From the NCBI GenBank assembly GCA_001314685.1, contig LJNT01000071.1:1-35851 (forward strand): a stretch of 35,851 nt of DNA, read 5' to 3'. This document shows positions 828 to 24,553 of the stretch, piece after piece. The DNA is from Rhodobacteraceae bacterium HLUCCA09. GTDB taxonomy: Bacteria; Pseudomonadota; Alphaproteobacteria; Rhodobacterales; Rhodobacteraceae. A program made the position numbers and the translations under genes. The notes beneath the pieces are model-generated. The model had not been told where the DNA came from. It ran no database searches and saw only the letters and a program-made list of their open reading frames with translations. Position 1 is the stretch's first letter; each line of letters begins with the position of its first letter.

Positions 828-1433
828 TCACCGGCCGGCGTCGGCCATCTCGTCGCGGAGCCGCGCGAGGTCTTCGGCGGTGTCGACATCCGCGAAGAAG
901 GCGGGCGTGTCGCTCTCGAAGCGGTGCACGAGGCCGGGATGGCGCCGGGTAAAGCCGGCGCAGCCGAGGCGCGGCCCGCCGGCAAGCACCGCCGCCCGCG
1001 CCTGCCGCGACAGCACGACTGGGTTGCCCCGTGCCTCGCCCCGCATCGGCACCGTGATGCGTCCTGGCAGCGCGGTGCGGGCAGCAGCGAGCAGGGTTTC
1101 CAGCGCTGGGGCCGTCAGAAGCGCGAGGTCGCCCGGCACGACGAGCGTCAGATCGGCGTCGGGCGCGCGGGCGAGGCCGAACGCGACGCTGCACTGCTGC
1201 CCCTCGGCGACGTCGGGATTGGTGGCGAGGTCGACCGCCAGGCCGGCGAGGCGCGCGCGAACCGCCTCGGCCTGATGGCCGAGCACGACGAGGGGTGGCG
1301 CGGTCGTCACGCCGAGCACCGCGTCGAGCGGGCGCCGCAGGAGCGGGCGGCCGCCCAACTCGGCGAGCAGCTTGTTCGCGGCGCCGAAGCGGGTCGAGAG
1401 GCCGGCGGCGAGCACCACGGCGGCGACGCTCAT
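828..1433 (-). CDS. MobA/MocA-like molybdenum cofactor nucleotidyltransferase
   Basis: This 201-residue protein is a small GT-A fold nucleotidyltransferase. It has the N-terminal nucleotide-binding loop VVLAAGLSTRFGAANKLL (residues about 5-22), then GQQCSVAFGL, the metal-site region LTLVVPGDLALLT, and the C-terminal DVDTAEDLARL. MocA relatives transfer CMP to molybdopterin to make molybdopterin cytosine dinucleotide, the cofactor form that CO dehydrogenases use. MobA relatives transfer GMP instead. The context, inside a cox cluster and overlapping coxF by four bases, favours the cytidylyl role, but the sequence alone does not prove base specificity. The loop reads GLSTRFG rather than the MobA GGxSxRMG form, which also leans to MocA. 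Confidence 0.85.
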   Translation of the reverse strand: MSVAAVVLAAGLSTRFGAANKLLAELGGRPLLRRPLDAVLGVTTAPPLVVLGHQAEAVRARLAGLAVDLATNPDVAEGQQCSVAFGLARAPDADLTLVVPGDLALLTAPALETLLAAARTALPGRITVPMRGEARGNPVVLSRQARAAVLAGGPRLGCAGFTRRHPGLVHRFESDTPAFFADVDTAEDLARLRDEMADAGR

Positions 1434-2191
1434 TGCGCCCCCTTGCGGCGCGCCTGAACAATCTCGGCCAGGATCGACAGGGCGATCTCGTCGGGCGTCG
1501 CGGCGCCGATGTCGAGGCCCGCGGGCGCGGCGACGGCGTCGAGCGCCGCGCGCTCCACCCCCTGCCCCGCCAGCTTGTCGCGCAGCGACGCCGCCTTGCG
1601 CCGGCTCCCCACGAAGGCGACATGCGCCGCGCCCGCGCCCACCGCCTCGGCCAGCGCCTTCGCATCGCCCTTGCCCTGCGTCGCCACCACGACGTAGCGC
1701 TCCCGCGCCGCCCCACCGAGCCGGTCGGTCAGGCGAAAATCGAACGCGCGGGCGAGTGCCCGCAGCGCCTGCGCCACCGGCCCGTCGCCCATCACGACGA
1801 GATCGGGCAGCGGCACGACCGGCTCGACGAAGACGTCCATCGAGCCCTTCGAGGCGCAGCCGTTGCGCTCGTAGATCATGCCGTCGCGCACCTCGCAGGG
1901 CTCGGCCCCCTCGGCGGCCAGCCGGTCGTCGGGGCGCAGCGCCACCAGCACCGGCTCGCCCCGCGCCACGGCCGCGCGGGCCGCCCGGCCGAGCGCGGCC
2001 CGCACGCAGCCGCCGCCCACCCAGCCCTCGATCAGCTCTCCCTGGGCGGTCAGCAGCGCGCGGGCGCCGGCGCTGGCCGCGGTGCTGTCCATCGTCCGCA
2101 CGATGGTGGCGGTGGCGAAGGGGGTGCCCTGCGCCCGCATCTCGCGGGCCAGCGCGTCGATCCGTTCGACCGTGACGGCGGCGGGTTTCAC
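1430..2191 (-). CDS. coxF: XdhC/CoxF-family Mo-enzyme maturation factor
   Basis: The 253-residue protein is an XdhC/CoxI/CoxF family member. These bind molybdenum cofactor and help sulfurate or insert it into xanthine-oxidase-type enzymes. In CO oxidisers CoxF acts with CoxD and CoxE to build the Cu-S-Mo site. Visible signatures are TIVRTMDSTAASAGARAL near residue 30, EGWVGGGCVRAAL in the N-terminal XdhC domain, CEVRDGMIYERNGCASKGSMDVF, and a Rossmann half beginning DLVVMGDGPVAQAL. The C-terminal DIGAATPDEIALSILAEIV is the usual family end. I chose a GTG start that overlaps the coxE stop as GTGA; translation upstream of it belongs to coxE in another frame. It also overlaps the next gene by four bases, indicating translational coupling. 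Confidence 0.9.
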   Translation of the reverse strand: MKPAAVTVERIDALAREMRAQGTPFATATIVRTMDSTAASAGARALLTAQGELIEGWVGGGCVRAALGRAARAAVARGEPVLVALRPDDRLAAEGAEPCEVRDGMIYERNGCASKGSMDVFVEPVVPLPDLVVMGDGPVAQALRALARAFDFRLTDRLGGAARERYVVVATQGKGDAKALAEAVGAGAAHVAFVGSRRKAASLRDKLAGQGVERAALDAVAAPAGLDIGAATPDEIALSILAEIVQARRKGAQ

Positions 2192-3369
2192 AGGCGGGCA
2201 AGCTCCCCTTCCAGCGCGGCGAGGCCGGCCAGCGTGTTGACGGCGTGGACGGCATCGAGATGCGGGCGCGCCTCGGCCATTCCGGCGGCGATGGCGCCGT
2301 GATCGGCCCAGCCCTTCAGCGGGTTGACCCAGACGATCCGACAGCCGCGGCGCCTGAGGCGGGCAAGGGCGGGGCCGATCGCCCCCGTCCCCTCGCTGTC
2401 GTAGCCGTCGGACAGGATGAACACGACCGTGCGCCCGTCGACGAAGGCCGGCGCGTAGCCGCGCGCGAACCGCTCGAGGCACGCCCCGATGCGCGAGCCG
2501 CCGCCGAAGCCCTCGGCCAAGAGGCTCATCCTGTTGAGCGCACGCAGGCGGTCGGGGTCGCGCAGGGCCTCGGTGATGCGCACGAGGCGCGTGTGGAAGA
2601 GGTAGGCGTCGGCCGCGGGGTCGCCCCGCACCAGGCCGGCGAGGAAGGCGAGGAAGGGGCGGGCGTAGACATTCATCGAGCCCGACACGTCGGTCAGCGC
2701 CGCGATCCGCACCGGCCGATCGGGGCGGGCCTTGCGCGGCAGATGGATCGGCTCGCCGCCGCTGGCGAGCGAGCGGCGCACGAGACGGCGAAAGTCGATC
2801 TCTGCCCCCCGCTTGGCCGCGCGGCGGCGGCGCGAGCGGCGGTCGCGCAGCGCCCGGCCCAGCCGCTCGGCAACGCGTTCGGCCTCGGCGATGTCGTCGC
2901 GCGAGACCAGCTCGCGCAGGTCGCGGCGGGCGAGGCTTTCGCCGCGCACGGCCAGCAGGCGCCCCTCGCCGCCGCCCTCGGCCTCGCCCTCGCCGTCTGT
3001 GTCGGGGCTGTCCTGCCTGCCCGCGCCTTCGGCCTGCGGCCCCCTGGCCTCGGCGGTGCTGCGCATCGCTTTCGTGGGCGTGCGGGCAGTGGGCGTGGCG
3101 CGCGTCACCACCCGGCCGCCGTTCATCCAGTAGGCGTCGAACAGCGCGTCGAAGCGGCGGGCCTCGTCGGCGCAGCCGGTGCAGACGGCCTTCAAGGCGG
3201 CGCGGGCCTGCGCGGGGTCGGCCGACTCGACGCAGGTGAGGGCGCGCATCGCCGTCTCGGTTTCCGACACGCCGAGGCGCAGCCCGTTCTCGCGGCAATG
3301 GGCGAGGAAGCCTGCCACGCGCGCGGCCGGCCCCGGGTCGCGCCCGGCGAAGCGGGTGACGCGGCTCAT
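2188..3369 (-). CDS. coxE: CoxE, von Willebrand A domain maturation protein
   Basis: The 393-residue protein is a CoxE-type VWA protein that works with the CoxD AAA+ ATPase in post-translational maturation of CO dehydrogenase. The N-terminal half is helical and ends in a long charged linker (GEGEAEGGGEG, then the Arg-rich DRRSRRRRAAKRG). The C-terminal VWA domain contains the MIDAS metal motif DVSGSM, then a conserved LFHTRLVRIT, the GFGGGSRIG segment and FILSDGYDSEGTG. The family is also found beside other MoxR ATPases, but here it sits between coxD and coxF, which supports the cox assignment. The ATG overlaps the coxD stop as ATGA, so the two chaperone subunits are probably made in step. 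Confidence 0.92.
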   Translation of the reverse strand: MSRVTRFAGRDPGPAARVAGFLAHCRENGLRLGVSETETAMRALTCVESADPAQARAALKAVCTGCADEARRFDALFDAYWMNGGRVVTRATPTARTPTKAMRSTAEARGPQAEGAGRQDSPDTDGEGEAEGGGEGRLLAVRGESLARRDLRELVSRDDIAEAERVAERLGRALRDRRSRRRRAAKRGAEIDFRRLVRRSLASGGEPIHLPRKARPDRPVRIAALTDVSGSMNVYARPFLAFLAGLVRGDPAADAYLFHTRLVRITEALRDPDRLRALNRMSLLAEGFGGGSRIGACLERFARGYAPAFVDGRTVVFILSDGYDSEGTGAIGPALARLRRRGCRIVWVNPLKGWADHGAIAAGMAEARPHLDAVHAVNTLAGLAALEGELARL

Positions 3370-4265
3370 GCTGCCTTCCCCGCGAGGCGCTGCGCGACTT
3401 CGGTCGTCATGTTGGCGCGGTCGGCCCGCGTCTTGAGCAGCGTGGCGAGGGCGGCCTGCAGCACGCCCGGATCGTCGGTCAGGTCGTTCACGCCGAGCCC
3501 CGCGAGCGCGGCGGCGAAATCCAGCGTCTCGGCCACGCCGGGCACCTTGTCGAGGTTCTCGCGCCGCAGCGCCTGCACGAAGCCCACGATCTGCGCGGCG
3601 AGCCGCTCCTCGACCTGGGGGCAACGGGCGGCGAGGATGGCGATCTCGGTCGCGCGGTCGGGGTAGCCGACCCAAGCATACATGCAGCGCCGCCGCAGCG
3701 CGTCGGACAGATCGCGCGTGCCGTTGGCGGTGAGGATCACGATGGGGCGGCTCGTGGCCTCTATCGTGCCGAGCTCGGGGATGGTGATCTGGTAGTCCGA
3801 CAGCACCTCGAGCAGGTAGGCCTCGAATTCCTCGTCGGCCCGGTCGATCTCGTCGATCAACAGCACCGGCGGCTCCTCCTGCCGAATGGCCTGCAACAGC
3901 GGCCGGGCGAGCAGGTAGTCCTCGGAAAACACCCGCTCCTCCACCTGCCGGCCCGTCTCGCCGCCCTCGGCGGCGGCGCGGATGGCGAGAAGCTGGCGCT
4001 GGTAGTTCCACTCGTAGATGGCGTGCGCCGCGTCGAGCCCCTCGTAGCATTGCAGGCGGATGAGCCGCGTGGCGCGGGCCGTCGCCAGCGCCTTTGCGAC
4101 CTCGGTCTTGCCCACGCCCGCCGCCCCTTCGAGCAGGAGCGGCCGGCCGAGCGAGACGGCGAGGTGCAGCGCCATGGCGAGGTCGGGCGCGGCGACGTAT
4201 CCCTGCGCTGCCAGATCGCGGCTCAGGGTGTCGGCACTCCCGATGCTGCCGGCGGCGGGGCCCAT
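3366..4265 (-). CDS. coxD: CoxD, MoxR-family AAA+ ATPase
   Basis: The 299-residue protein is a MoxR-type AAA+ ATPase. In Oligotropha-type systems CoxD drives energy-dependent remodelling of apo-CO dehydrogenase so that sulfur and copper can be added. The Walker A motif is LLLEGAAGVGKTEVAKAL, about residues 40-57, and Walker B is VLLIDEIDRADEEFEAYLL. The sensor region reads IVILTANGTRDLSDALRRRC, with the arginine finger in that last segment. It lies directly upstream of coxE with a four-base overlap. Seven bases separate its start from the DUF305 stop, consistent with one transcript running from coxL. Confidence 0.93.
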   Translation of the reverse strand: MGPAAGSIGSADTLSRDLAAQGYVAAPDLAMALHLAVSLGRPLLLEGAAGVGKTEVAKALATARATRLIRLQCYEGLDAAHAIYEWNYQRQLLAIRAAAEGGETGRQVEERVFSEDYLLARPLLQAIRQEEPPVLLIDEIDRADEEFEAYLLEVLSDYQITIPELGTIEATSRPIVILTANGTRDLSDALRRRCMYAWVGYPDRATEIAILAARCPQVEERLAAQIVGFVQALRRENLDKVPGVAETLDFAAALAGLGVNDLTDDPGVLQAALATLLKTRADRANMTTEVAQRLAGKAA

Positions 4266-4272
4266 ACCGGGC

Positions 4273-4680
4273 CTACTCCGCCGCCTTGCGGGCCAGCCAC
4301 GCGCGCATGAAGGCGATTTCGGCCTCCTGCGCGGCGATGACCTCTTCGGCCAGCTTGCGGATCTCGGGGTCGGTCCCGTGTTCCAGCACGACGCGGGCCA
4401 TCTCCACCGCGCCCTCGTGGTGCGGAATCATCGAGCGGACGAAGTCGATGTCGGCGTCGCCCGTCCATTCGACGGCCATGCCGGCATGCATCCGCGCGTT
4501 GATCTCGTCGAAGGCGGCCGCGGCGGGGCCGAGATCGGCCGTTGCGGCGGCCATGTCGTGCCCGGCGTGGTCGCCGTGCGCGTCGGCGGCATGGGAGGTG
4601 GCGAGCGCCGGCGCGGCAAGGGCGGCGCAGGCCGCGAAGGCGGCGAAGGTCGAGAGGATGTGCATGTTTCCCGTTCTCAT
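4273..4680 (-). CDS. Secreted DUF305 protein, possible copper-binding protein
   Basis: This protein of about 135 residues has a signal peptide (MRTGN then a hydrophobic Ala-rich core ending AAPALA), a His-rich mature N-terminus ([15 protein letters not shown]) and one DUF305 domain. The domain carries the family motifs [20 protein letters not shown] and [20 protein letters not shown]305 proteins are four-helix ferritin-like-fold proteins, and several are linked to periplasmic copper binding. It lies between coxL and coxD in the cox direction, 51 bases after coxL. It is not part of the classical cox set. I infer a copper supply or buffering role for the Mo-Cu enzyme; that is not shown by the sequence. 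An in-frame ATG 15 bases downstream (4665) is an equally possible start; a longer upstream frame lacks signal-peptide character. Confidence 0.85.
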
Positions 4681-4731
4681 GTTGCGGGCCGCCGCACCCG
4701 ATGGCGGCGGCCTCGCGGAGAGTATAGCCAA

Positions 4732-7149
4732 TCAGCCGTGCAGGCCGAGGCCGCTTGCGATCTTCCACACGCGCCAGTGATCGTGGGGCATGTGGCTCTG
4801 GCGCAGCCCGAAGGCGCGGAAGGCGTCGTGCACCGCGTTCGAGAAGGCCGGCACGCCGCCCACGTTGGGGCTCTCGCCCACGCCCTTGGCCCCGATCGGG
4901 TGATGGGGCGAGGGTGTCACGGTGTGGTCGGTCGTGTAATGGGGCGTCTCGACGGCGGTGGGCACGAAGAAGTCCATCAGCGTGCCGGTCTTGACGTTGC
5001 CCATCTCGTCGTAGGCGATCTCCTGCCCCATCGCGATGGCCAGCGCCTCGGTCAGCCCGCCATGCACCTGCCCCTCGATGATCATCGGGTTGATCCGCGT
5101 GCCGCAATCGTCGAGCGCGTAGAACTGGCGGATCTCGGTCTGCCCGGTATCCACGTCGATCTCCATCACGCAGACATAGGCGCCGAACGGGTAGGTCATG
5201 TTGGGCGGGTCGTAGTAGCTGACCGCCTCGAGACCCGGCTCGAGGCCGGGAATCGCCTGGTTGTAGGCAGCGAAGGCGATCTCCTTCATCGTCTTGAACC
5301 GCTCGGGGTCGCCCTTGACCGCAAAGCGGTCGACATCCCATTCCAGATCGTCGTCGTGCACCTCCAGCAGGTAGGCCGCGATCATCTGCGCCTTGGCGCG
5401 GATCTTGCGGCCCGCCATGGCCGTCGCCGCGCCTGCCACGGGCGTCGAGCGCGAGCCATAGGTGCCGAGGCCGTAGGGCGCGGTGTCGGTGTCGCCCTCC
5501 TCCACCGTGATCGAGTCGGCCGGCAGGCCGATCTCGCTGGCGAGGATCTGCGCGAACGTCGTCGCGTGCCCCTGCCCCTGGGAGATCGTGCCGAGCCGCG
5601 CGATGGCCGAGCCGGTGGGGTGGATGCGGATCTCGCAGGAATCGAACATCCCCAGCCCGAGGATGTCGCAGTTCTTGACCGGCCCGGCGCCCACGATCTC
5701 GGTGAAATGGGTCAGCCCGATGCCCAGCAGCTTGCGCGTCTCGCCCCGCCTGAACGCGTCCACCCGCTCGGCCTGTTCGCGCCGCAGGCCGGCATAATCG
5801 ACCGCCGCCAGCGCCTTGTCCCAAGCGGTGTGGTAGTCGCCCGAATCGTATTCCCAGCCCAGCGCCGAGTGGTAGGGGAATTGCTCGGCCTTGATGAAGT
5901 TGATCCGGCGCAGCTCGGCGGCGTCCATCCCCAGCTCGATGGCGAGGATCTCGATCATCCGCTCGATGAAGTAGGCGGCCTCGGTCACCCGGAACGAGCA
6001 GCGATAGGCCACGCCGCCCGGCGCCTTGTTCGTATAGACGCCGTCGACCGAAAGGAACGCCGTGGGGATGTCGTAGCTGCCCGTGCAGATGTTGAAGAAG
6101 CCGGCGGGAAACTTGGTGGGGTCGGCGCAGGCGTCGAACCCGCCGTGGTCGGCGGTGACGTGGCACCACAGGCCCGTGATCTTCCCCTCCTTCGTCGCCG
6201 CGATCCTGCCCTTCATCCAGTAATCGCGGGCGAAGGCGGTGGTCATCAGGTTGTCCATCCGGTCCTCGACCCACTTCACCGGCTTGCCGGTGACGATCGA
6301 GGCGACGGCCGAGCAGATGTAGCCCGGATACGCCCCCACCTTGTTGCCGAAGCCCCCGCCGATATCGGGCGAGACGATCCGGATGTTGTGTTCCTCGATG
6401 CCCGAGATCAGCGACACCACGGTGCGGATGGCATGCGGCGCCTGAAAGGTGCCCCAGATCGTCAGCTTGCCGTTCACCTTGTCCATCTGCGCGACGCAGC
6501 CGCATGGCTCCAGCGGGCACGGGTGGGTGCGGTGGTAGTAGATCATCTCCTCGGCCACCACGTCGGCCTCGGCGATGACCTGCTCGGTCGCCTCGCGGTC
6601 GCCCTGCTCCCAGGTGAAGATGTGGTTGTGGTGGCGGCGGGGGCCGTGGGCACCCTCGGTCTTGCCGGCCAGATCCTCGCGCAACACGGGCGCGTCGGGC
6701 TCCAGCGCCTTGAACGGATCGGTGACGACGGGCAGATCCTCGTACTCGACCTCGACGGCCTCGATCCCGTCTGCGGCGGCGTAGCGGTCGGTCGCCACGA
6801 CGAACGCCACCTCCTGACCCTGAAAGAGTACCTTGCCGTCGGCCAGCACCATCTGCTTGTCGCCGGCCAGCGTCGGCATCCAGTGCAGGCCCAGCGGCTC
6901 GAGATCCCTGGCGGTGATCACGGCCAGAACGCCCGGCACCTTCATCGCGGCCTCGGTGTGGATCGCCTTGACGCGGGCATGGGCGTGGGGGCTGCGCACG
7001 AAGTCGCCGAAGAGCATCCCGGGCAGCTTGATGTCGTCGACATAGTTGCCCTTGCCCTGCGTGAACCGCGCATCCTCGACCCGCTTGCGCGAGGTGCCGA
7101 GGCCCTTGAGCGCGACGGTGCGTTCCTGGCTGTCGGGAAGATCCTTCAT
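4732..7149 (-). CDS. coxL: Aerobic CO dehydrogenase large subunit (form I)
   Basis: This 805-residue protein is the molybdenum-binding catalytic subunit that oxidises CO to CO2. The decisive mark is VAYRCSFR at residues 380-387, with Cys384 as the expected copper ligand; form II relatives carry AYRGAGR instead. Other molybdopterin-binding signs are the [18 protein letters not shown] segment, [12 protein letters not shown], and [20 protein letters not shown], which holds the catalytic glutamate. The N-terminus [20 protein letters not shown] is standard for the family. The ATG overlaps the coxS stop as ATGA. Length and motif order match authentic form I CoxL. It sits in the M-S-L order typical of form I operons and should assemble into the cytoplasmic (LMS)2 complex. 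Confidence 0.97.
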
Positions 7150-7637
7150 TCCGCGGCCTCCTTCGCTGCGTTCATCTCCGCCGCGGCGGCGAGGATGGCC
7201 TTCACGATGTTCTGGTAGCCGGTGCAGCGGCACAGGTTGCCGGCGATGCCGAAGCGCACCTCTTCCTCGGTGGGGCTCGGGTTCTCCTGCAGCAGACGAT
7301 AGGCGCGCGTGATCATCCCCGGTGTGCAGTAGCCGCATTGCAGCCCGTGATGCTCGCGGAACGCCTCCTGCAGCGGGTGCATCGCATCCGGCGTGCCCAG
7401 CCCCTCGACCGTGGTGATCTCGCGGCCCGCCGCCTGCGCGATGAACACGGTGCAGGATTTCACCGAGCGACCGTCGATATCGACCGTGCAGGCCCCGCAA
7501 TGCGAGGTCTCGCAGCCGATATGCGGCCCGGTGATCGAAAGCTGCTCGCGCAGCGTGTGGATCAGCAGTTCGCGCGGTTCGGCAAGCACGTCGCGCGCCT
7601 CGCCGTTCACCGTGATCTGGTAATGTTGCTTGCCCAT
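7146..7637 (-). CDS. coxS: CO dehydrogenase small subunit, [2Fe-2S] protein
   Basis: This 163-residue subunit passes electrons from the Mo-Cu site to the flavin. The N-terminal plant-ferredoxin-like domain has the cysteine set [10 protein letters not shown] plus a later SCTVF cysteine. The C-terminal helical domain has CGYCTPGMI and the closing NLCRCTGY, which bind the second [2Fe-2S] cluster. All eight cysteine ligands are present. Its start ATG is at 7637, 17 bases after coxM, and the end overlaps coxL by four bases. Length is typical of the family. Confidence 0.97.
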
Positions 7638-7654
7638 GGCTGGCTCTCTCTCCC

Positions 7655-8509
7655 TCAGGCCCGGCTGACGGCGCGTTCGATGGCGCGCCGGATCATGACG
7701 CCCGCGACATGGCGCTTGAAATCGACGGGGCCGCGATTGTCCTCCGTCGGGTCGATGTCGGCCCTGGCGGCCTCAACGGCCGCGCCGATGGCGTCGGCCT
7801 CGCAGCCGGTGCCGACGAGCGCCTGCACCGCCGCCTCCGACCACACCGGCACGTCCGACAGGTTGGTCATGGCGATCGAGGCCTGGGTGCAGCGCCCGCC
7901 CTCCATCGTGACCAGCGCGGCGCAGGCGGCGGTGGCGTAGTCGCCGATCTTGCGCTTCTGCTTCTCGTAGGCGTAGCCGCCCGAGGGCACGGCGAAGGTG
8001 ATCGCGGTCAGGATCTCGTCGTCCTCGCGCGCGGTCATGTAGGCGGCCTCGTAGTAGTCGCGTGCCGCCACCGTCCGCTCGCCGCCCGGCCCAACAAGAT
8101 GGAAGGTGGCGCCGAGGCACTGCATCAGGCCCGGCATGTCGTTGCCCGGATCGCCGTTGGCGACGTTGCCGCCCACAGTGCCGCAATAGCGCACCTGCGG
8201 GTCGGCGATCTGCAGCGCGGCCTCGCGGACAAGGGGGGCCGCCTGCGCCAGTTCGGCGCTCGCGATCAGATCGTGCTGCGTGACCATCGCGCCGAGGCGG
8301 ACGGTGCCGCCCTCGACGGCGATGTCGCGCAGTTCGGCGATGTCCTGCAGGTCGACCAGATGGGCCAGGTCGGTCATCCGCAGCTTCATCATGGGGATCA
8401 GGCTGTGGCCGCCTGCGATCACCCGGGCCTCGTCGCCGTGCTCGCCGAGGATGGCGAGGGCGGCGGCGATGTCGCCGGGCCGGTGGTAGTCGAACCGCGC
8501 CGGTATCAT
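7655..8509 (-). CDS. coxM: CO dehydrogenase medium subunit, FAD-binding
   Basis: The 284-residue flavoprotein subunit accepts electrons from CoxS and passes them toward the quinone pool. FAD-binding signatures are [14 protein letters not shown] (from about residue 33) and [19 protein letters not shown] (about 110-130). The C-terminal CO_deh_flav_C domain starts near [10 protein letters not shown] and contains [15 protein letters not shown]. The start at 8509 is preceded by a strong AGGAGCAC ribosome site; upstream codons in the same frame are not family-like. It is the first enzyme gene of the operon and follows a 254-base gap after the MHYT-LytTR regulator. That gap holds several hairpins and a repeated nonamer described separately. 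Confidence 0.96.
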
Positions 8510-8574
8510 GTGCTCCTCCCTGGTGCGTTCTTCTGCCGCATGCAGCCTTGTATGCCGCAGTCGACGAAAGCGGG

Positions 8575-8639
8575 AACGGCGAATGAACGACGCCGGTGGC
8601 CCGGTGCACGAGCTGCGAAATACGCGCACCAACGGCGAA
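8575..8639. promoter_or_regulatory. Direct repeat AACGGCGAA upstream of coxM
   Basis: The nonamer AACGGCGAA occurs at 8575-8583 and again at 8631-8639, 56 bases apart in the same orientation. On the coxM strand it reads TTCGCCGTT. LytTR DNA-binding domains usually recognise short direct repeats, and a LytTR regulator is encoded just upstream. This is a candidate operator only; the spacing is wider than usual LytTR half-site spacing. Confidence 0.3.
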
Positions 8640-8648
8640 GCCGGGGCG

Positions 8649-8742
8649 AACGGCCTTCGAAGGCCGTTGGGTCACGCGGCGTCCGGGGTGACGTGTGAGG
8701 CGGCGAAGGCGCCGCGGGGCCAAGGCGTTTCGAAACGCCTTG
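8649..8742. repeat. Cluster of four hairpins between coxC-like gene and coxM
   Basis: Two perfect palindromes, both centred on TTCGAA, bound this 94-base block. The first is 20 bases at 8649-8668 (AACGGCCTTC and its complement). The second is 22 bases at 8721-8742 (core AAGGCGTTTC and its complement). Between them lie a GTCAC/GTGAC inverted repeat (8671-8692) and a GCGGCG-AAGG-CGCCGC stem-loop (8700-8715). No T-run follows any of them on either strand, so they do not look like simple terminators. They could be REP-like repeats, mRNA processing or stability elements, or binding sites. Confidence 0.65.
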
Positions 8743-8763
8743 CCACCGGCCCCGGCCGTGCCA

Positions 8764-10107
8764 TCAGAGACCCAGCGCGGCGCGGACGTCGGACAGCCGG
8801 GAGCGGGAGACCGGCACCTTCCCCAGCGCCCCGGCACCGTCGAAATAGGCCACGCCGCCGTCCTTCTTACGCTCGAAGGCCGAGACATGCGCGGGGTTGA
8901 TCAGGTAGCTGCGATGCGCCCGCACGAAGGGTGCCGGCGCGAGCCGGCGCTCCGCCTCGGAGATCGACCACGGGCAGAACCCGCGCGCCTCGCCGCGGTA
9001 GATCACCGTGTAATGCCCCTCGGCCCGGAACGCGGCGATGTCGCCGGGATCGGCGAAGAGCGTGCGCCCGTTCTGCTCGTAGGGAACGCCGCGGCGCGGC
9101 GGGACAGAGCCCGGGGCGGGCTGTCCGGCCGACTCGGGCACCATGCCGATGGCGCGCGCAACGGGGGCGCGCGTAACGGGGGCGGGCGCGGCGGGGGCGG
9201 GCGCGGCGGAAACCCGGGCGGCGCGAGCGTCGGGGGCGGGCGCAAGCGCAGAACCTTGCATAGCCGTGGCGAGTGCTGCCCCGGGAGCCGCCATGCCATG
9301 GGTCGTGCCACCAGTCGCCGCGCCGCCAGTCGCCGCGCCGCCAGTCGCCGCGCCGCCCGGAAGGAAGGTCGCTCCCGAGAGCAGGAAACCGCCGCAGATG
9401 GCGAAGGAGGCCAATGTAACCGCGAGCGCCAGCGTTTCGTTGCCCAGCGTCAGCTCGGGCATCCGTGGCACCGGGTCGGCGAAGAAGCGCGTGCCCGCGA
9501 TCGCGAGGTAGTGCAGCGCCACCACCGCCACGGCGAAGCACACCGTCCCGAGCACGATGTTGCGCCGCGTCCGCTCGCCGTAGGCCACGCGGATCGCCAC
9601 GACCGAAAGGCCGAGCGACACGGTGGCCGAGGCGGCGAGGCCGAGCGGGGTGTAGGCGGCGCGGCACGCCTCCATCCCCGCCATCCCGATGTAGTGCATC
9701 GCCAGGATGCCCACGCCGAAGACGAGGCCCGCGAGCGTGACCGTCGCGGCCGTGCGCGCGCGGAAATGCAGCAAGATCAGGCCGAGCCCCACGATCAGGA
9801 TGCCGACAAGCGCCGAGATCAGCGTGGTCAGCGCATCGTAAAAGAACGGGATCGGCAGCTGCAGCCCCAGCATGGCGACGAAATGCATCGACCAGATGCC
9901 GCCCCCGAGCACGATGGCCGAAGCCGCGACGGCCCGCTTGCGCGGCCCCTCGGCGAGGGCCTGCGCCCCGCGGGTGAGGCACAGCCCCGTGAACCCGGCC
10001 ATGAGCGCGATCGCGAATGACGCGACCACGAGCAGCGGATCGTGCGAGACGTCGAGCGGCAGCGTCAGACCCTCCCCTGCCTGATACCCTGGCTTTCGAT
10101 ACGGCAT
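8764..10107 (-). CDS. coxC: MHYT-LytTR membrane regulator (CoxC/CoxH type)
   Basis: This protein of about 447 residues joins an N-terminal integral-membrane MHYT sensor to a C-terminal LytTR DNA-binding domain. The membrane part shows two clear MHYT-type motifs, MHFVAM and MHYIGM, and a degenerate third, LHYLAI, across about seven hydrophobic helices. MHYT domains are proposed to bind copper and sense a gas such as CO or O2. A Gly/Ala/Pro-rich linker with a GGAAT repeat follows. The LytTR domain spans roughly the last 110 residues, including AEGHYTVIY, FVRAHRSYLINPAHV and a KVPVSRSRL end. Oligotropha CoxC and CoxH have the same architecture. It lies directly upstream of coxM in the same direction. 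I chose the MPYRK start, with GGGAA four bases ahead; an ATG 66 bases further upstream is possible. Confidence 0.87.
   Translation of the reverse strand: MPYRKPGYQAGEGLTLPLDVSHDPLLVVASFAIALMAGFTGLCLTRGAQALAEGPRKRAVAASAIVLGGGIWSMHFVAMLGLQLPIPFFYDALTTLISALVGILIVGLGLILLHFRARTAATVTLAGLVFGVGILAMHYIGMAGMEACRAAYTPLGLAASATVSLGLSVVAIRVAYGERTRRNIVLGTVCFAVAVVALHYLAIAGTRFFADPVPRMPELTLGNETLALAVTLASFAICGGFLLSGATFLPGGAATGGAATGGAATGGTTHGMAAPGAALATAMQGSALAPAPDARAARVSAAPAPAAPAPVTRAPVARAIGMVPESAGQPAPGSVPPRRGVPYEQNGRTLFADPGDIAAFRAEGHYTVIYRGEARGFCPWSISEAERRLAPAPFVRAHRSYLINPAHVSAFERKKDGGVAYFDGAGALGKVPVSRSRLSDVRAALGL
9311..9355 (-). repeat. 15-bp in-frame tandem repeat in the coxC linker
   Basis: Three perfect copies of a 15-base unit (CCAGTCGCCGCGCCG on the plus strand) encode repeated GGAAT pentapeptides in the linker between the MHYT and LytTR domains. 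Copy-number change would alter linker length by five residues without breaking the frame. Confidence 0.85.
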
Positions 10108-10271
10108 TTCCCGGCCCGGGCAAAGTAACGACGCGCGGATCGGCGGTAGCCGCGGGCCGACTGCGGCCGGCACGGCGCCGGGAAACGCCCGGGCCCGGCC
10201 GCTGCGGAACTTCGGCCGGGAGGAGCGACTTCTCCCGCAACGGCCCGCCGCGGCAAGATGGGAGAGACGCC

Positions 10272-10757
10272 ATGAAGATCACCAGCCTGAAAGAGCTATA
10301 CATCGCCGAGCTGCAGGAGGCCCGGTCGTTCGAGGGCCAGATCGCCAATGCCCTGGGCGAGCTCGCCGACAGGGCCAGCGACGGCGCGCTGCGCGAGATG
10401 CTCGCGGGCGAGAGGCCGGAGAGCCTGCGCCACGGCGAGCGCGTCACCGCGCTGCTCGAGCGCCACGGCGTCGACCCGCGCGCCCACGAGGACCAGACCA
10501 TGAGGGCCATCCTGGCGGAGGCCGGGAAGTGGGCCGCAGAGATCGACGAGCCGGCCGTGCGCGACGCCGCGCTCATCGCCAGCGTCCAGCGCATCCAGCA
10601 CTACGAGATCGCCGCCTACGGCGCGCTCGTCGCATGGGCGCGGGAGCAGGGCCTCGAGGACGCAGAGACGCTGGCCGGGATCCTCGAGGAAGAGAAGGCC
10701 GCCGACGACAAGCTCAGCACCCTCGCCGGCGAGCGGGTGAACGCCGGGGCATCGTAA
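10272..10757 (+). CDS. Ferritin-like DUF892 (YciE/YciF family) protein
   Basis: The 161-residue protein belongs to the DUF892 family, small four-helix-bundle proteins of ferritin-like fold related to enterobacterial YciE/YciF. The family pattern is clear: the start KITSLKELYIAELQEARSFE, a repeat of helices with E...E..H spacing (MLAGERPESLRHGERV), and QRIQHYEIAAYGAL in the third helix with its metal-ligand Glu and His. The last helix, GILEEEKAADDKLSTLAE-like, is also typical. Known relatives are induced by osmotic or general stress, but no activity is established. A GGGAGAG ribosome site precedes the ATG. It is divergent from coxC and convergent with the deacetylase gene, so it is probably a single-gene unit. 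Confidence 0.88.
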   Translation: MKITSLKELYIAELQEARSFEGQIANALGELADRASDGALREMLAGERPESLRHGERVTALLERHGVDPRAHEDQTMRAILAEAGKWAAEIDEPAVRDAALIASVQRIQHYEIAAYGALVAWAREQGLEDAETLAGILEEEKAADDKLSTLAGERVNAGAS

Positions 10758-10943
10758 GCGCGCACCCGGCTTCACCCTGCGACCGGGGGTCGGCGAGGCG
10801 TGCCATGTGGGTGTCTGTCCTGCTCCGTCGCTTCGTCGGCGGCGCAGGGCGCCTGCCCGACCCGGCTTCGCCAGGCGGCCGTGGGGCACGTGGGCCGCAA
10901 GGGCAGTGCCGCCCCCGGGCGCCCGATCACCCTCGCCCTCGCC

Positions 10944-11963
10944 TCAGCCCTGCGCCCCTTCGATTGCCGCGGCGAGGTTCGGCCCGAGGTCGTCGGAGAG
11001 GTAGCCGCCCTCCTGCACCCAGACGGTCGGCAGGCCCGCCCCGGCGATGGCGCGGGCGATGCGGCGGAAGCCCTCGGTCGTGACCGCGAGACCCTGGAAC
11101 GGGTCGTTGACATGCGCGTCGAGGCCCAGCGCCACCACCAGCGCGTCGCAGCCGAAGGCGTCGATGCGGGCGAGGGCGGTGTCGAGCGCGCGCAGGTAAT
11201 CCTCGTCGCCGGTGCCGCGCGGCAGGGCGAGGTTGAGGTTGGCGCCGCGGCCCGCGCCCTCGCCGCGCTCCTGCGGGTAGCCCCAGAAGAACGGATAGAA
11301 GCGCTCCGGGTCGGCGTGGACCGACACGGTCAGCACGTCGCCGCGGGCGTAGAAGATGCCCTGCGTGCCGTTGCCGTGATGCACGTCGACGTCGAGCACC
11401 GCCGGTCGGCGGCCCGCGCGCAACAGGCGCTCGGCGGCGATGGCGGAGTTGTTGAGAAAGCAGAAACCGCCGGCGAGGTCGGCATAGGCGTGATGCCCCG
11501 GCGGGCGCGACAGCGCATAGACCGCCCCCTCGCCGCCGAGCACGAGGTCGGCCGCCGTCACCGCGCTCTGCGCCGACCAGTAGGCCGAGTCCCATGTATG
11601 GGCGCCGATGGGGCAGGCGGTGTCGGCCTGGTGATAGCCGGCCTGGCCGACGGCGGATCTGGGGTAGCCGTCGGTCCGGGCCGCGGGGTGGATGTTGGGG
11701 ATCACCTCCTCCCCCGCGCCGTCGATGTGCTGCCAGCGGGCGTGGATCGTGCGCAGGAAGTGCAGGTACTCGGCGCTGTGCACGGCGGCGAGGGGGCCCA
11801 TCCCGTGATCCTGCGGCGCCACGAAGCTGCAGCCCGCCCGTTCGGCGGCGGCGCGCAGGCGCGCGATGCGCTCGGGCTGCTCGGGGCTCGGCCGGGGCAC
11901 GCCATTGACAAGGAAGAATTGCGGGTCGTGGCGGGCCTGCCTGTCGTCATGGACGGCTTTCAT
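10944..11963 (-). CDS. Histone-deacetylase-family amidohydrolase (acetylpolyamine type)
   Basis: This 339-residue protein is a class II-like HDAC superfamily hydrolase, close in style to bacterial acetylpolyamine amidohydrolases that deacetylate N-acetylputrescine and relatives. Zinc and catalytic motifs are in order: SRPPGHHAYADLAGGFCFLNN (paired active-site His), LDVDVHHGNGTQGIFY (zinc Asp and His), and VALGLDAHVNDPF (second zinc Asp). The N-terminal QFFLVNGVPRPSPEQPERI matches the polyamine branch, with the inserted L1 loop. An AAAGGAGAG ribosome site lies five bases before the ATG, inside the end of the GNAT gene, which it overlaps by 17 bases. It is the last gene of the amine operon. Substrate is inferred from neighbours, not seen. 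Confidence 0.88.
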   Translation of the reverse strand: MKAVHDDRQARHDPQFFLVNGVPRPSPEQPERIARLRAAAERAGCSFVAPQDHGMGPLAAVHSAEYLHFLRTIHARWQHIDGAGEEVIPNIHPAARTDGYPRSAVGQAGYHQADTACPIGAHTWDSAYWSAQSAVTAADLVLGGEGAVYALSRPPGHHAYADLAGGFCFLNNSAIAAERLLRAGRRPAVLDVDVHHGNGTQGIFYARGDVLTVSVHADPERFYPFFWGYPQERGEGAGRGANLNLALPRGTGDEDYLRALDTALARIDAFGCDALVVALGLDAHVNDPFQGLAVTTEGFRRIARAIAGAGLPTVWVQEGGYLSDDLGPNLAAAIEGAQG

Positions 11964-12441
11964 GGCTCTCCTTTCGCTCTGTCCGGCTCAGTCTGGCGGT
12001 CGCCTCGGGGCCGAGCGTCAGCCGCGCCTGCCCGGTGACGGGGGTGAAGCCCAATCGGTCATAGAAGGTCCGCGCTCGGGGGCTGTCGTCGTAGACGGCG
12101 AGGGCGAGGTAGAGCGCGCCCCAGTGCGCATGCGCGTCGCGCGCCACGGCCCCGAGCAGGCGGCGGCCGAGGCCGGTGCCGCGCGCCGGCGGCGCCACCC
12201 AGAGGTCCGAGACCCAGGCGCCTGCCCCGCCGGTGACGGTGGAAAAGACGGGCGAGTAGAGCGCGAGGCCGCTCCCGCCCGCGAGCAGCGCCCGGAAGGG
12301 CGGCAGGGGGGCGCTCATCGCCGCGGCGAGGCGCGCGGCGTCCATCCGGTGCGGCTCTCCCAGATCGGCCGAGAGGCGGGCGAGGCCGGCGGCAAGCGCC
12401 TCGGCATCCTCCGGGCCGGCCGGGCGGATATCAGGCGTCAT
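11947..12441 (-). CDS. GNAT-family N-acetyltransferase
   Basis: This 164-residue protein has the GNAT fold: an N-terminal IRPAGPEDAEALAAGLARL, the acetyl-CoA loop VSDLWVAPPARGTGLGRRLL (Q/RxxGxG/A type) near residues 77-97, and the C-terminal DDSPRARTFYDRLGF motif B. These enzymes move an acetyl group from acetyl-CoA to an amine; related small GNATs acetylate polyamines such as spermidine or other amines. It overlaps the BKACE stop by four bases upstream and the deacetylase by 17 bases downstream. Acetylase and deacetylase are thus adjacent in one operon. The particular acceptor cannot be read from the sequence. Confidence 0.85.
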   Translation of the reverse strand: MTPDIRPAGPEDAEALAAGLARLSADLGEPHRMDAARLAAAMSAPLPPFRALLAGGSGLALYSPVFSTVTGGAGAWVSDLWVAPPARGTGLGRRLLGAVARDAHAHWGALYLALAVYDDSPRARTFYDRLGFTPVTGQARLTLGPEATARLSRTERKESHESRP

Positions 12442-13367
12442 GGGATCGCGGTCGCCGCCGCCCCCTTCAGCCCGAGCAGGGCGCGCGCCTCGGCGGGGGA
12501 GGCGGGCGTGCGGCCCAGCTCCTCGACGATGCGGCGCACCTTCTCGACCTGCGCGGCATTGGAGGGGGCGAGTTGCCCCGGCCCGATCGTCAGGCTGTCT
12601 TCGAGGCCGACGCGCACGTGCCCCCCCATCGCCGCCGCCATCGCGGCGAAGCGCATCTGGTGGCGGCCCGCGGCGAGCACCGAAAAGGCGTAGTCATCCC
12701 CCAGCAGCCGGTCGGCGGTGCGGACCATGTGGTTGAGGTTGTCGGGGTGCGCATCCATGCCCCCCAGCACGCCGAACACGAACTGGACGAAGAACGGCGG
12801 CTCGACCAGCCCGCGCTCGGCGAAGTGGGCGAGCATGGCGATATGTCCCGCGTCGTAGCACTCGAACTCGAACCGCGCGCCGCGCTCGGCCCCCATCTGG
12901 TGCAGAACGGAGGCGATGTCGCGCGGGGTGTTCTTGAACACCAGGTCGTCGGAGCCCTCAAGGAACGGCTTCTCCCAGTCGTGCTGCCAGTCCGCGATGC
13001 GCTCGGCCATCGGGTAGAGGGCGAAGTTCATCGTGCCCATGTTGAGCGAGCACATCTCCGGCGCGGCGGCCTTCGGCGCGGCGAGCCGCTCGGCGAGGCT
13101 CATCACCGCACTGCCCCCGGTGGAGAGGTTGAGCACCGCGTCGGTGCCCGCCTTGAGGCGCGGCAGGAAGCCCATGAAATGCCGAGGGTCGGCCGAGGGC
13201 CGGCCGGTCTCGGGGTCGCGGGCGTGCAGATGCAGGATGGCCGCGCCCGCCTCGGCCGCGTCTAGGCCCTGCGCCACGATCTCGTCGGCGGTGACTGGCA
13301 GGTGGGGCGACATCGACGGCGTGTGGATCGAGCCCGTCAGCGCGCAGGTGATGAGGATGGCCGACAT
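12438..13367 (-). CDS. BKACE-family beta-keto acid cleavage enzyme (DUF849)
   Basis: The 309-residue protein belongs to the BKACE family (DUF849), zinc-dependent TIM-barrel enzymes that condense a beta-keto acid with acetyl-CoA to give acetoacetate and a new acyl-CoA. The founder is Kce of lysine fermentation. Visible features are ITCALTGSIHTPSMSPHLPVT at the N-terminus, the zinc pair in AAILHLHARDPETGRPS, the LNLSTGG segment, a later FECYDAGH, and the C-terminal VRVGLEDSLTIGPGQLAPSN, a conserved family block. It follows the aminotransferase by six bases. Its neighbour is likely to generate a keto acid by transamination that this enzyme could then cleave. Substrate class within BKACE is not decided here. 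Confidence 0.9.
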   Translation of the reverse strand: MSAILITCALTGSIHTPSMSPHLPVTADEIVAQGLDAAEAGAAILHLHARDPETGRPSADPRHFMGFLPRLKAGTDAVLNLSTGGSAVMSLAERLAAPKAAAPEMCSLNMGTMNFALYPMAERIADWQHDWEKPFLEGSDDLVFKNTPRDIASVLHQMGAERGARFEFECYDAGHIAMLAHFAERGLVEPPFFVQFVFGVLGGMDAHPDNLNHMVRTADRLLGDDYAFSVLAAGRHQMRFAAMAAAMGGHVRVGLEDSLTIGPGQLAPSNAAQVEKVRRIVEELGRTPASPAEARALLGLKGAAATAIP

Positions 13368-13373
13368 GCGCGC

Positions 13374-14720
13374 TCAGACCGGCTCGGGCAGGGCGAACTC
13401 GGCCGAGAACTCGGCAAGCGTCTCGTCGATCAGCGTCGCGATCTCGTCGATCTGCGGCTCGGTCACGATCAGCGGCGGCGCGACGAGCACGTGATCGCCC
13501 GAATACCCGCCGCGCGTGCGCCGGGAATAGACGATGAGGCCCCGCGCATAGGCCATCTCCACGAAGCGGGCAAAGGCCCGCGCGCCCGGCGGCAGCGGCG
13601 CCATCGTCTCCCGGTCGGAGACGAACTCGAACGCCGTCAGCAGGCCCTTGCCGCGAACGTCGCCGATCACCGGGTAGCGCGCCATCAGCCCGCGCAGGCG
13701 TGACAGCAGCACCTCGCCCATCCGCGCGGCGTTGGCGACGAGCCCCTCGCGCTCGATCTCCTCGATCACGGCGAGGCCCGCGGCGCAGGCGAGCGGATTG
13801 CCGGCATAGGTATAGCCGTGCAGGAACCCGCCCGCGTCGAGAATCCGCTCCACGATATCGCGGTGCGCCGCCATCGCGCCGAGCGGCACGTAACCGGCGG
13901 CGAAGCCCTTGGAGAGCACCATGATGTCGGGGCGCGTGCCCGTGTGCTCGGCGGCGCAGAAGGCGCCGGTGCGGCCGGCCCCCGTCATCACCTCGTCGAG
14001 GATCAGCAGGATGCCGTAGTCGCGGCAGACCTCTTCGACCGCCTCCATGTAACCCGCCGGCGGCACCAGAGCGCCGGTCGAGGCGCCGCCCACCGGCTCG
14101 ACGATGAAGGCGAGCACGGTCTCGGGCCCCTCCGCCTCGATCCGCGCCCGCAGCTGGTCGGCGTAGTGGCGGCCCGTGGCCGGGTCGGCAGGGTCGAGCC
14201 CGTCGAGATAGGCGCGCGGGGCCGGAACGCGCGGCATCAGCCGCATCATCGGCAGGAACGGGTCGGTCAGCGCGTCGTAGCCGGTGATCGACAGCGCGCC
14301 GAGGGTCGAGCCATGATAGGAGGGCTCGCGCGTGACGACCTTCCACCGCCCCGGCTGGTCGGTGGCGAGCGCCCATTGCCTGGCGAGCTTCATCGCCGAT
14401 TCCACCGCCTCGGAGCCGCCCGAGACGAAGAAGATCCGGTCGAGCCCCTCGGGCATGAGCGCGGCTGTCCTGGCGGCCAGCGCCTCCGACGCTTCGGTCT
14501 CGAAATGGAGGCGGTAGCCGAAGGTCGCCCGCTCCATCTGCCGCCGCATCGCCTCGAGCACGCGCGGGTTCGAGTGTCCGATATTGCAGACCATCGCGCC
14601 CGACGAGCCGTCGATGTATCGGCGGCCATCCACGTCCCACATGTAGATACCGCGCGCCTGGTCGAGGACGGGGCGGCGCTCGCGCCCCTGGTAGAAAAGG
14701 TGCGAGGGCGCCCGACTCAT
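13374..14720 (-). CDS. Class III PLP-dependent aminotransferase
   Basis: The 448-residue protein is an omega-amino acid or amine transaminase of PLP fold type I, class III. Signatures are the N-terminal SHLFYQGRERRPVLDQARG and the IDGSSGAMVCNIGHSNPRV segment, FVSGGSEAVESAMKLARQW for the phosphate site, ILLILDEVMTGAGRTG with the PLP-ring aspartate, and MVLSKGFAAGYVPLGAM with the Schiff-base lysine. A substrate-side arginine region, RRTRGGYSGDHVLVAPPL, is near the end. The start at 14720 overlaps the upstream ATPase stop as ATGA; a longer frame upstream is unlikely. Position next to an amine transporter and a beta-keto acid cleaving enzyme suggests it converts an imported amine or amino acid to a keto product. 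Confidence 0.92.
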   Translation of the reverse strand: MSRAPSHLFYQGRERRPVLDQARGIYMWDVDGRRYIDGSSGAMVCNIGHSNPRVLEAMRRQMERATFGYRLHFETEASEALAARTAALMPEGLDRIFFVSGGSEAVESAMKLARQWALATDQPGRWKVVTREPSYHGSTLGALSITGYDALTDPFLPMMRLMPRVPAPRAYLDGLDPADPATGRHYADQLRARIEAEGPETVLAFIVEPVGGASTGALVPPAGYMEAVEEVCRDYGILLILDEVMTGAGRTGAFCAAEHTGTRPDIMVLSKGFAAGYVPLGAMAAHRDIVERILDAGGFLHGYTYAGNPLACAAGLAVIEEIEREGLVANAARMGEVLLSRLRGLMARYPVIGDVRGKGLLTAFEFVSDRETMAPLPPGARAFARFVEMAYARGLIVYSRRTRGGYSGDHVLVAPPLIVTEPQIDEIATLIDETLAEFSAEFALPEPV

Positions 14721-21207: not shown

Positions 21208-22140
21208 TCAACTCGCGGCCGGCAACGCCCCGCCGCGCAGCCCCTCGGCCGCCCGGCGCACCGCGCCCGCCACCTCGTGCAGCCGGTCGGCGAGCGGCGA
21301 CGAGCGGCGCCAGACCATGCCGATGGTGCGCGAGGGCTGCGGCTCGGGAAAACGCGTCACCGACACGTCGGCCGAGCGCGTCTCGACCGGCACCGCCATC
21401 TCGGGGATGAGCGTCACGCCGATGCCGGCGGCCACCATCTGCACCAGCGTCGACAGCGACGAGCCGTCGAGCAGGTCGCGCGGGCGCCCCGGGCCGCGCG
21501 ACGGCCCGAGATCGCAGAACGACAGCGCCTGGTCGCGGAAGCAGTGGCCCTCTTCCAGCAGCAGCAGGCGCATCCGCGCCAGCGTCTCGGCAGACGGCAC
21601 GGGGCTTCCGGCCTCGGCCGCCGGACGCACCAGCACGAAGGCCTCGGTGAAGAGCGCGACCTCCTCAAGCGCAGGCTCGGAGACGGGCAGCGCCACGATG
21701 GCGGTGTCGAGCCGCCCCTCGGCAAGCTCGGTCAGCAGCTTGGGCGTGACCGTCTCGCGCACGCGGATGTCGAGGCCGGCATGATCTCGCGCGAGATCGC
21801 CCACGATGGCGGGCAGGAGGTAGGGCGCGACGGTCGGGATCACACCGATCCGCAGCCGCCCCGCCAGCCTGTCGCGCGAGGCGCGGGCGAGATCGTCGAG
21901 CTCGTCGACGCCCCGCAGGATGTCGCGCACCCGCGCCGCCACCTCCTCGCCGAACCCCGTGAGCCGCACCTGCCGCGCCCCCCGCTCGAACAGCGGCGCG
22001 CCGAACGCCTCTTCCAGATCGCGAATCTGCATCGAGAGCGCGGGCTGGCTGATCGCGCAGGCCTCGGCCGCGCGCCCGAAATGGCCGTGCCGCGCCAGCG
22101 CCTCGAAATAGCGGAACTGCTTGAGGGTGAGCCCTTTCAT
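21208..22140 (-). CDS. oxyR: OxyR, hydrogen peroxide-sensing LysR regulator
   Basis: The 310-residue protein is a LysR-type regulator with the redox pair of OxyR: HCFRDQALSFC, Cys200 and Cys209, matching the pair C199/C208 that form the activating disulfide. The N-terminal DNA-binding domain begins TLKQFRYFEALARHGHFGRAAEACAIS and continues QPALSMQIRDLEEAFGAPLF. The inducer-binding half contains GVIPTVAPYLLPAIV and MVAAGIGVTLIPEMAV, a conserved OxyR segment. It is divergent from katG, a known target in many bacteria. Its C-terminus is followed after 55 bases by the cysteine-synthase-like gene. Identification is strong. Confidence 0.93.
   Translation of the reverse strand: MKGLTLKQFRYFEALARHGHFGRAAEACAISQPALSMQIRDLEEAFGAPLFERGARQVRLTGFGEEVAARVRDILRGVDELDDLARASRDRLAGRLRIGVIPTVAPYLLPAIVGDLARDHAGLDIRVRETVTPKLLTELAEGRLDTAIVALPVSEPALEEVALFTEAFVLVRPAAEAGSPVPSAETLARMRLLLLEEGHCFRDQALSFCDLGPSRGPGRPRDLLDGSSLSTLVQMVAAGIGVTLIPEMAVPVETRSADVSVTRFPEPQPSRTIGMVWRRSSPLADRLHEVAGAVRRAAEGLRGGALPAAS

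Positions 22141-24553
<2,413 letters not shown>

Follow-up and report, generated by a model that had tools for sequence, protein, structure and literature searches.

A copM gene between coxL and coxD in a form I carbon monoxide dehydrogenase operon of the Rhodobacteraceae

CopM of Synechocystis PCC 6803 (PDB 5ffa, 5fej) is described as a periplasmic and partly extracellular copper-binding resistance protein that lowers the copper content of the cell (PMC4335983). According to the same account, it consists of two DUF305 domains and is encoded in the copper-resistance operon copMRS, whereas the protein reported here has one domain and is encoded in an operon for aerobic carbon monoxide dehydrogenase (CODH); the two share the DUF305/CopM domain and, besides a signal for export that is putative in the protein reported here, Met/His motifs with a His-His pair. 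A single domain, like that of our protein, is present in the DUF305 protein of PDB entries 7vw0 and 7vw1, titled 'dimeric periplasmic protein' without and with cuprous ions, respectively. CODH is stated to need copper (PMC3471820). In Oligotropha carboxidovorans, the enzyme is reported to lie on the cytoplasmic side and to mature at the membrane (PMC6011924, PMC3471820); PMC3471820 assigns CoxD to the insertion of sulfur and names CoxE and CoxF as further requirements for that of copper. An introduced coxMSLDEFG set without CopM is reported to have yielded CODH activity in Ralstonia eutropha extracts, a result that concerns the introduced set and not the R. eutropha genome (PMC6011924). Copper may also be harmful: in a Rubrivivax copA mutant, a putative CO dehydrogenase (CoxSLM) is reported to lose all activity under excess copper, whereas the wild type is unaffected by 100 µM Cu (PMC10434068).

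The window, by which we mean the whole analysed stretch of 35,851 nucleotides from the Rhodobacteraceae bacterium HLUCCA09, carries a CODH cluster on its minus strand. Profile matches identify, in this order, genes for a coxC-like MHYT-LytTR protein (8764–10173), the FAD subunit CoxM (7655–8512), the 2Fe-2S subunit CoxS (7146–7637), and the large subunit CoxL (4732–7149), followed by copM (4273–4680) and by coxD (3366–4265), which encodes an AAA+ ATPase of CODH maturation whose N-terminus differs from those of the relatives compared. Further profile matches then assign coxE (2188–3369; VWA protein, VWA_CoxE), coxF (1430–2191; XdhC/CoxI family), a gene for a MobA/MocA-like nucleotidyltransferase (828–1433), and coxG (293–772). 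The features of a form I CO dehydrogenase operon are all present: the M-S-L gene order, a CoxL that scores 1405.3 bits against TIGR02416 (cut-off 991.15), and an AYxCSFR-type motif, here AYRCSFR. On plasmid pHCG3 of Afipia (Oligotropha) carboxidovorans OM5, the order of the MHYT gene, coxM, coxS, coxL, coxD (MoxR), coxE (VWA), XdhC gene, and coxG is the same, but coxD begins 54 nt after coxL with no DUF305 gene between them, and coxG follows the XdhC gene directly, whereas the window has the MocA-like gene at that place. Elsewhere in the window (21208–24553), inspection by eye suggests a LysR-type regulator gene next to a large ORF that resembles a catalase-peroxidase.

The DUF305 gene between the form I coxL and coxD genes is real and intact. 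The earlier note had described it as a secreted, His-rich gene on the strand of its neighbours with short gaps, and that description holds, with secretion being probable from the N-terminus. The frame at 4273–4680 is open without a break and encodes 135 amino acids from the ATG at 4680, with an alternative ATG at 4665 (the choice between the two is uncertain); the precursor contains nine His and eight Met residues. All three genes lie on the minus strand, with gaps of 51 nt (4681–4731) between coxL and copM and 7 nt (4266–4272) between copM and coxD. The 51-nt spacer can form a GC-rich hairpin, which is no more stable than those of shuffled sequences (z = -0.97), and a simple scan of positions 4200–5000 gave no sigma-70 promoter or terminator around copM. 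The GC3 of copM is 0.912, and the other nine genes of the cluster span 0.872–0.945. It is the sole DUF305 match (E <= 0.001) in the genome, which is 92.7 per cent complete.

In profile searches with the 130-aa form that starts at ATG 4665, the protein matches the NCBIfam model NF049983 (CopM family metallochaperone) at 117.9 bits (cut-off 90) over model positions 2–73 of 73, which places it in that family above the curated cut-off along the whole model, and matches Pfam DUF305 at 70.2 bits (cut-off 27). In a phmmer search, the protein matches CopM of Synechocystis at E = 3.3e-21 and, at E = 8e-14, the single-domain protein of 7vw0/7vw1. The N-terminus is hydrophobic over 15 residues (mean hydropathy 2.09, compared to a maximum of 1.11 beyond residue 40), and, as judged by eye, a cleavage-type motif follows the hydrophobic stretch. 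Residues M64, M68, M84, H87, and H88 are invariant in all 59 CopM loci that were chosen without a motif filter, and all five are present in the window protein; H65 occurs in 50 and M94 in 55 of the 59. The codons of the invariant H87-H88 pair occupy positions 4417–4422 of the minus strand. A 30-row alignment agrees with these counts, its rows having been preselected by a pattern that contains M84 and the His-His pair. An AlphaFold2 model built from 30 sequences has low confidence in the first 50 residues and, from residue 51, a confident three-helix core (block pLDDT 91–98). A structure search with this model returned four PDB chains at E <= 0.001, all from 7vw0 and 7vw1; the top match is 7vw1_B (TM-score of 0.84 on the target, 1.9 A), the dimer with bound Cu(I). 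Membership in a copper-binding family, which the earlier note had suggested, is thereby borne out. Judged from its sequence, the window CopM is probably periplasmic, and family membership suggests that it binds copper.

How often does a copM gene occupy this slot? In a first survey of one genome per genus (198 members of the family, 44 with CoxL above the cut-off), CopM was beside CoxL only in the genome of the window. We initially considered the layout unique to the window and probably incidental, a view overturned when the draw was widened to 394 genomes of the family (coxL at E <= 1e-280 in 103, above the cut-off in 101) and two further carriers appeared; in the newly added genomes, CopM was sought only around coxL. 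Altogether, 124 coxL loci were gathered from family, genus, class, and phylum samples. A coxD gene is visible downstream on the same strand in 117 of them, and locus L304 brings the number to 118; in six of the seven loci without coxD (L005, L085, L095, L228, L230, and L262), the sequence stops at most 184 bases past the coxL match. The seventh, L229 (G008), carries a form I coxL, but coxD is missing from the 3.1 kb behind it, where the ORFs look unlike the usual cox set. CopM lies between coxL and coxD in 3 of the 118 loci: the window, L297 (G1043), and L299 (G1008), the last two from two other genera of the same family. Their CopMs score 120.3 and 117.7 bits, respectively, are encoded on the same strand as the cox genes, and are 57–58 per cent identical to the window CopM over 117–121 codons, with MIAHH where the window has MIPHH; their CoxL lineage differs from that of the window. 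The copM-side hairpin of L299 is also no more stable than shuffles (z = -0.35), and for that of L297 (z = -1.78) 7 of 200 shuffles are equally stable. The arrangement of the window recurs in two other genera, but it is missing from 115 of the 118 clusters, including that of a congener. L304 comes from the genus of G1043 but differs in its CoxL, and its coxD is present without a CopM; CopM was found in none of the five named plasmid cox clusters inspected (of 19 found), among them that of O. carboxidovorans. CopM is not part of the core form I cox gene set, just as the note had held. In the parts of the open-access literature that the search reached, no report of CopM inside a cox cluster was found; the one paper in which DUF305 and 'carbon monoxide dehydrogenase' appeared together proved to concern the unrelated terms DUF3050 and Ni-CODH maturation. 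As a separate observation, 48 of the 124 CoxL sequences fail the AYRCSFR-type pattern, and the four of these that were inspected read SYRCSFR, a variant that matters for motif-based surveys of form I enzymes.

Comparison with the one other genome of the genus among those analysed (G198, locus L062) locates the insertion. Window positions 966–4218 and 4731–14000 are collinear with the congener at 89–90 per cent identity, and the segment between them (4219–4730, minus strand) has no blastn match there; it comprises copM and a replaced 5' end of coxD and measures 512 bp, compared to 237 bp in G198, where no CopM separates coxL from coxD. G198 has a single DUF305 gene, which is located on a different contig and is only distantly similar (42 per cent identity over 59 aa, 41.3 bits). 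The replaced N-terminus of CoxD (4219–4265) is longer in the window and starts with MGPAAGSIGSADTLSRDLAAQGYV, compared to MADWTELATDLAAQGYV in the congener. By eye, CoxD of many relatives begins as that of the congener does, with a Trp near the start. Because the first codons of coxD are replaced in the window and many relatives start as the congener does, the presence of copM looks like the derived state on sequence grounds. The coxL-coxD spacer of the congener (approximately 1382–1450 of L062) also contains a 27-nt inverted repeat with 96 per cent complementarity, and no such repeat was found at window positions 4180–4800.

In a CoxL phylogeny (FastTree only; 122 proteins after two shorter than 600 aa were dropped), the window groups with the congener (support of 1.0) and L297 with L299 (support of 0.98), and the fork that unites both carrier groups has a support of 0.197. 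The CoxLs nearest to that of the window (L062, L259, L016, and L218) come from loci without CopM, as does L292, the nearest to L297 and L299. On this tree, two gains require the fewest changes, and a single gain needs 18 losses. It therefore seems that copM entered the slot at least twice. The independence of the gains rests on the CoxL tree and the junctions because, in the CopM phylogeny (55 hand-picked rows), a single clade of the three cox-linked CopMs is not rejected (AU test; P-value = 0.459). In BLAST searches, the CopMs of L297 and L299 are mutual best matches; with the window CopM as the query, approximately 97 and 105 other CopMs outscore those of L297 and L299, respectively, and with these two as queries, 20 and 30 CopMs, respectively, outscore that of the window.

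On the CopM tree, the nearest neighbour of the window protein is L165 (support of 99/81 with 119 rows and of 94/19 with 55 rows). In L165, L181, L203, and L233–L236, copM adjoins a class I/II aminotransferase gene (Aminotran_1_2); in L146 and L237–L239, it does not. A simple move of copM from an aminotransferase-side site after the split of the window lineage from its congener is unsupported, since that site is collinear and free of copM in both genomes, and it is simpler to assume that copM was acquired from a different lineage of the family. That coxL, copM, and coxD were transferred together as one block can be set aside, given the flanks described above and a CoxL that pairs with that of the congener (97.3 per cent identity). 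The molybdenum hydroxylases beside CopM in L165 and L161 are not of form I (325 and 166 bits, respectively, against the window CoxL) and reveal no shared pattern, and a phage origin of copM found no blastn match.

The main rival to the explanation that we favour is incidental insertion: copM would be a mobile gene for copper tolerance, of general use to the cell, that happened to land where an expressed operon tolerates additional DNA, and it would have no particular connection with CODH. We regard this as a real possibility, although not the likelier outcome. It agrees with the empty slot of the congener and with the scattered contexts of CopM: among the best 80 CopM loci (flanks of up to 10 kb), 25 have a P1B copper ATPase, 3 a class I/II aminotransferase, and none a form I coxL. 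Nor is CopM enriched in genomes with form I CODH, in which it occurs in 6 of 44 compared to 36 of 154 without CODH in the family sample (Fisher's exact test; P-value = 0.21) and in 2 of 16 compared to 35 of 369 in the class sample (P-value = 0.66); CopM is therefore an occasional partner of CODH. Moreover, the slot accepts other genes, as a RidA/YjgF-type gene (PF14588) lies there in L285 and L286 (G977 and G947). Across 116 loci, the window left out, the median of the estimated coxL-coxD gap is 39 nt, and the gap exceeds 250 nt in 8 of 117 loci, which hold CopM (three), the RidA-like gene (two), or coxG (three: L082, L206, and L209). On the other hand, chance alone is unlikely to have brought members of one gene family into this slot in two CoxL lineages. 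With approximately 54 CopM copies across 198 genomes and an assumed 4000 or so genes per genome, a CopM would appear at least once in two further insertions with a probability of approximately 1.4e-4, or 0.014 with a 100-fold bias; these values, of the order of 1e-4 to 1e-2, are rough, as the two RidA loci, whose common CoxL clade has seven tips, could stem from a single insertion or from two. In addition, the copM pair of L297 and L299 has a dN of 0.18 and a dS of 0.73, from which it follows that the gene was kept across genera under constraint.

Because recurrence in the slot seems improbable by chance, a benefit tied to CODH is suggested, and the explanation that we favour, with the case for and against it about evenly balanced, is that CopM is expressed along with CODH and buffers copper in the periplasm while the enzyme is being made, its gene having been gained separately in two lineages. 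Under this scenario, copM would have been acquired between coxL and coxD in the window lineage and would have entered the slot separately in the ancestor of the two other genera (L297 and L299). The gene would be transcribed together with the CODH genes during CO oxidation, and its product would be exported, dimerize, and bind Cu(I) via its Met/His motifs. Induced by CO, CopM would then buffer copper in the periplasm, and copper handling would be linked to the production of a copper enzyme. Free copper may also poison this enzyme. The benefit of such a buffer could be protection or a reserve for supply; the earlier note had likewise named buffering and protection as roles that CopM may have.

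A more specific version, which we consider doubtful, makes CopM a reservoir dedicated to CODH that collects periplasmic Cu(I) and passes it to an importer feeding the CoxE/CoxF step, so that the two lineages would have converged on a private supply line. Direct delivery of copper from CopM to CoxL or to the CoxDEF machinery, the role in supplying the Mo-Cu site that the earlier note had put forward, is unlikely. The need of CODH for copper, the copper-binding family, and the position of the gene next to both coxL and coxD speak for it, but an export-type N-terminus is at odds with an enzyme that matures at the membrane and lies on its cytoplasmic side, and to pass copper inwards from CopM a transporter would be required, of which the slot encodes none. 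Moreover, 115 of the 118 clusters, that of the congener included, do without CopM. Because CODH and its maturation are on the cytoplasmic side and the CopM-free coxMSLDEFG set was active in R. eutropha, as reported in the sources cited above, an exported CopM is probably neither necessary nor rightly placed to supply CoxL. Least probable of all is that CopM serves a different periplasmic copper protein that is used while CO is oxidized, for example a haem-copper terminal oxidase. The compartment would be right, and CO-derived electrons enter the respiratory chain, but no oxidase or oxidase assembly gene is among the ten cluster proteins scanned.

Returning to the co-expressed buffer, we infer that CopM is an optional helper of CODH, neither a core maturation factor nor a direct donor to CoxL. 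The data hint at a real copper link between CopM and CODH, one that bears on the route by which copper reaches the Mo-Cu site and on how molybdenum hydroxylases are shielded from copper poisoning. The genome of the window and that of its congener constitute a natural pair with and without copM. If the dedicated-reservoir version were true, a separate copper supply for a Mo-Cu enzyme would have evolved convergently in some members of the family.
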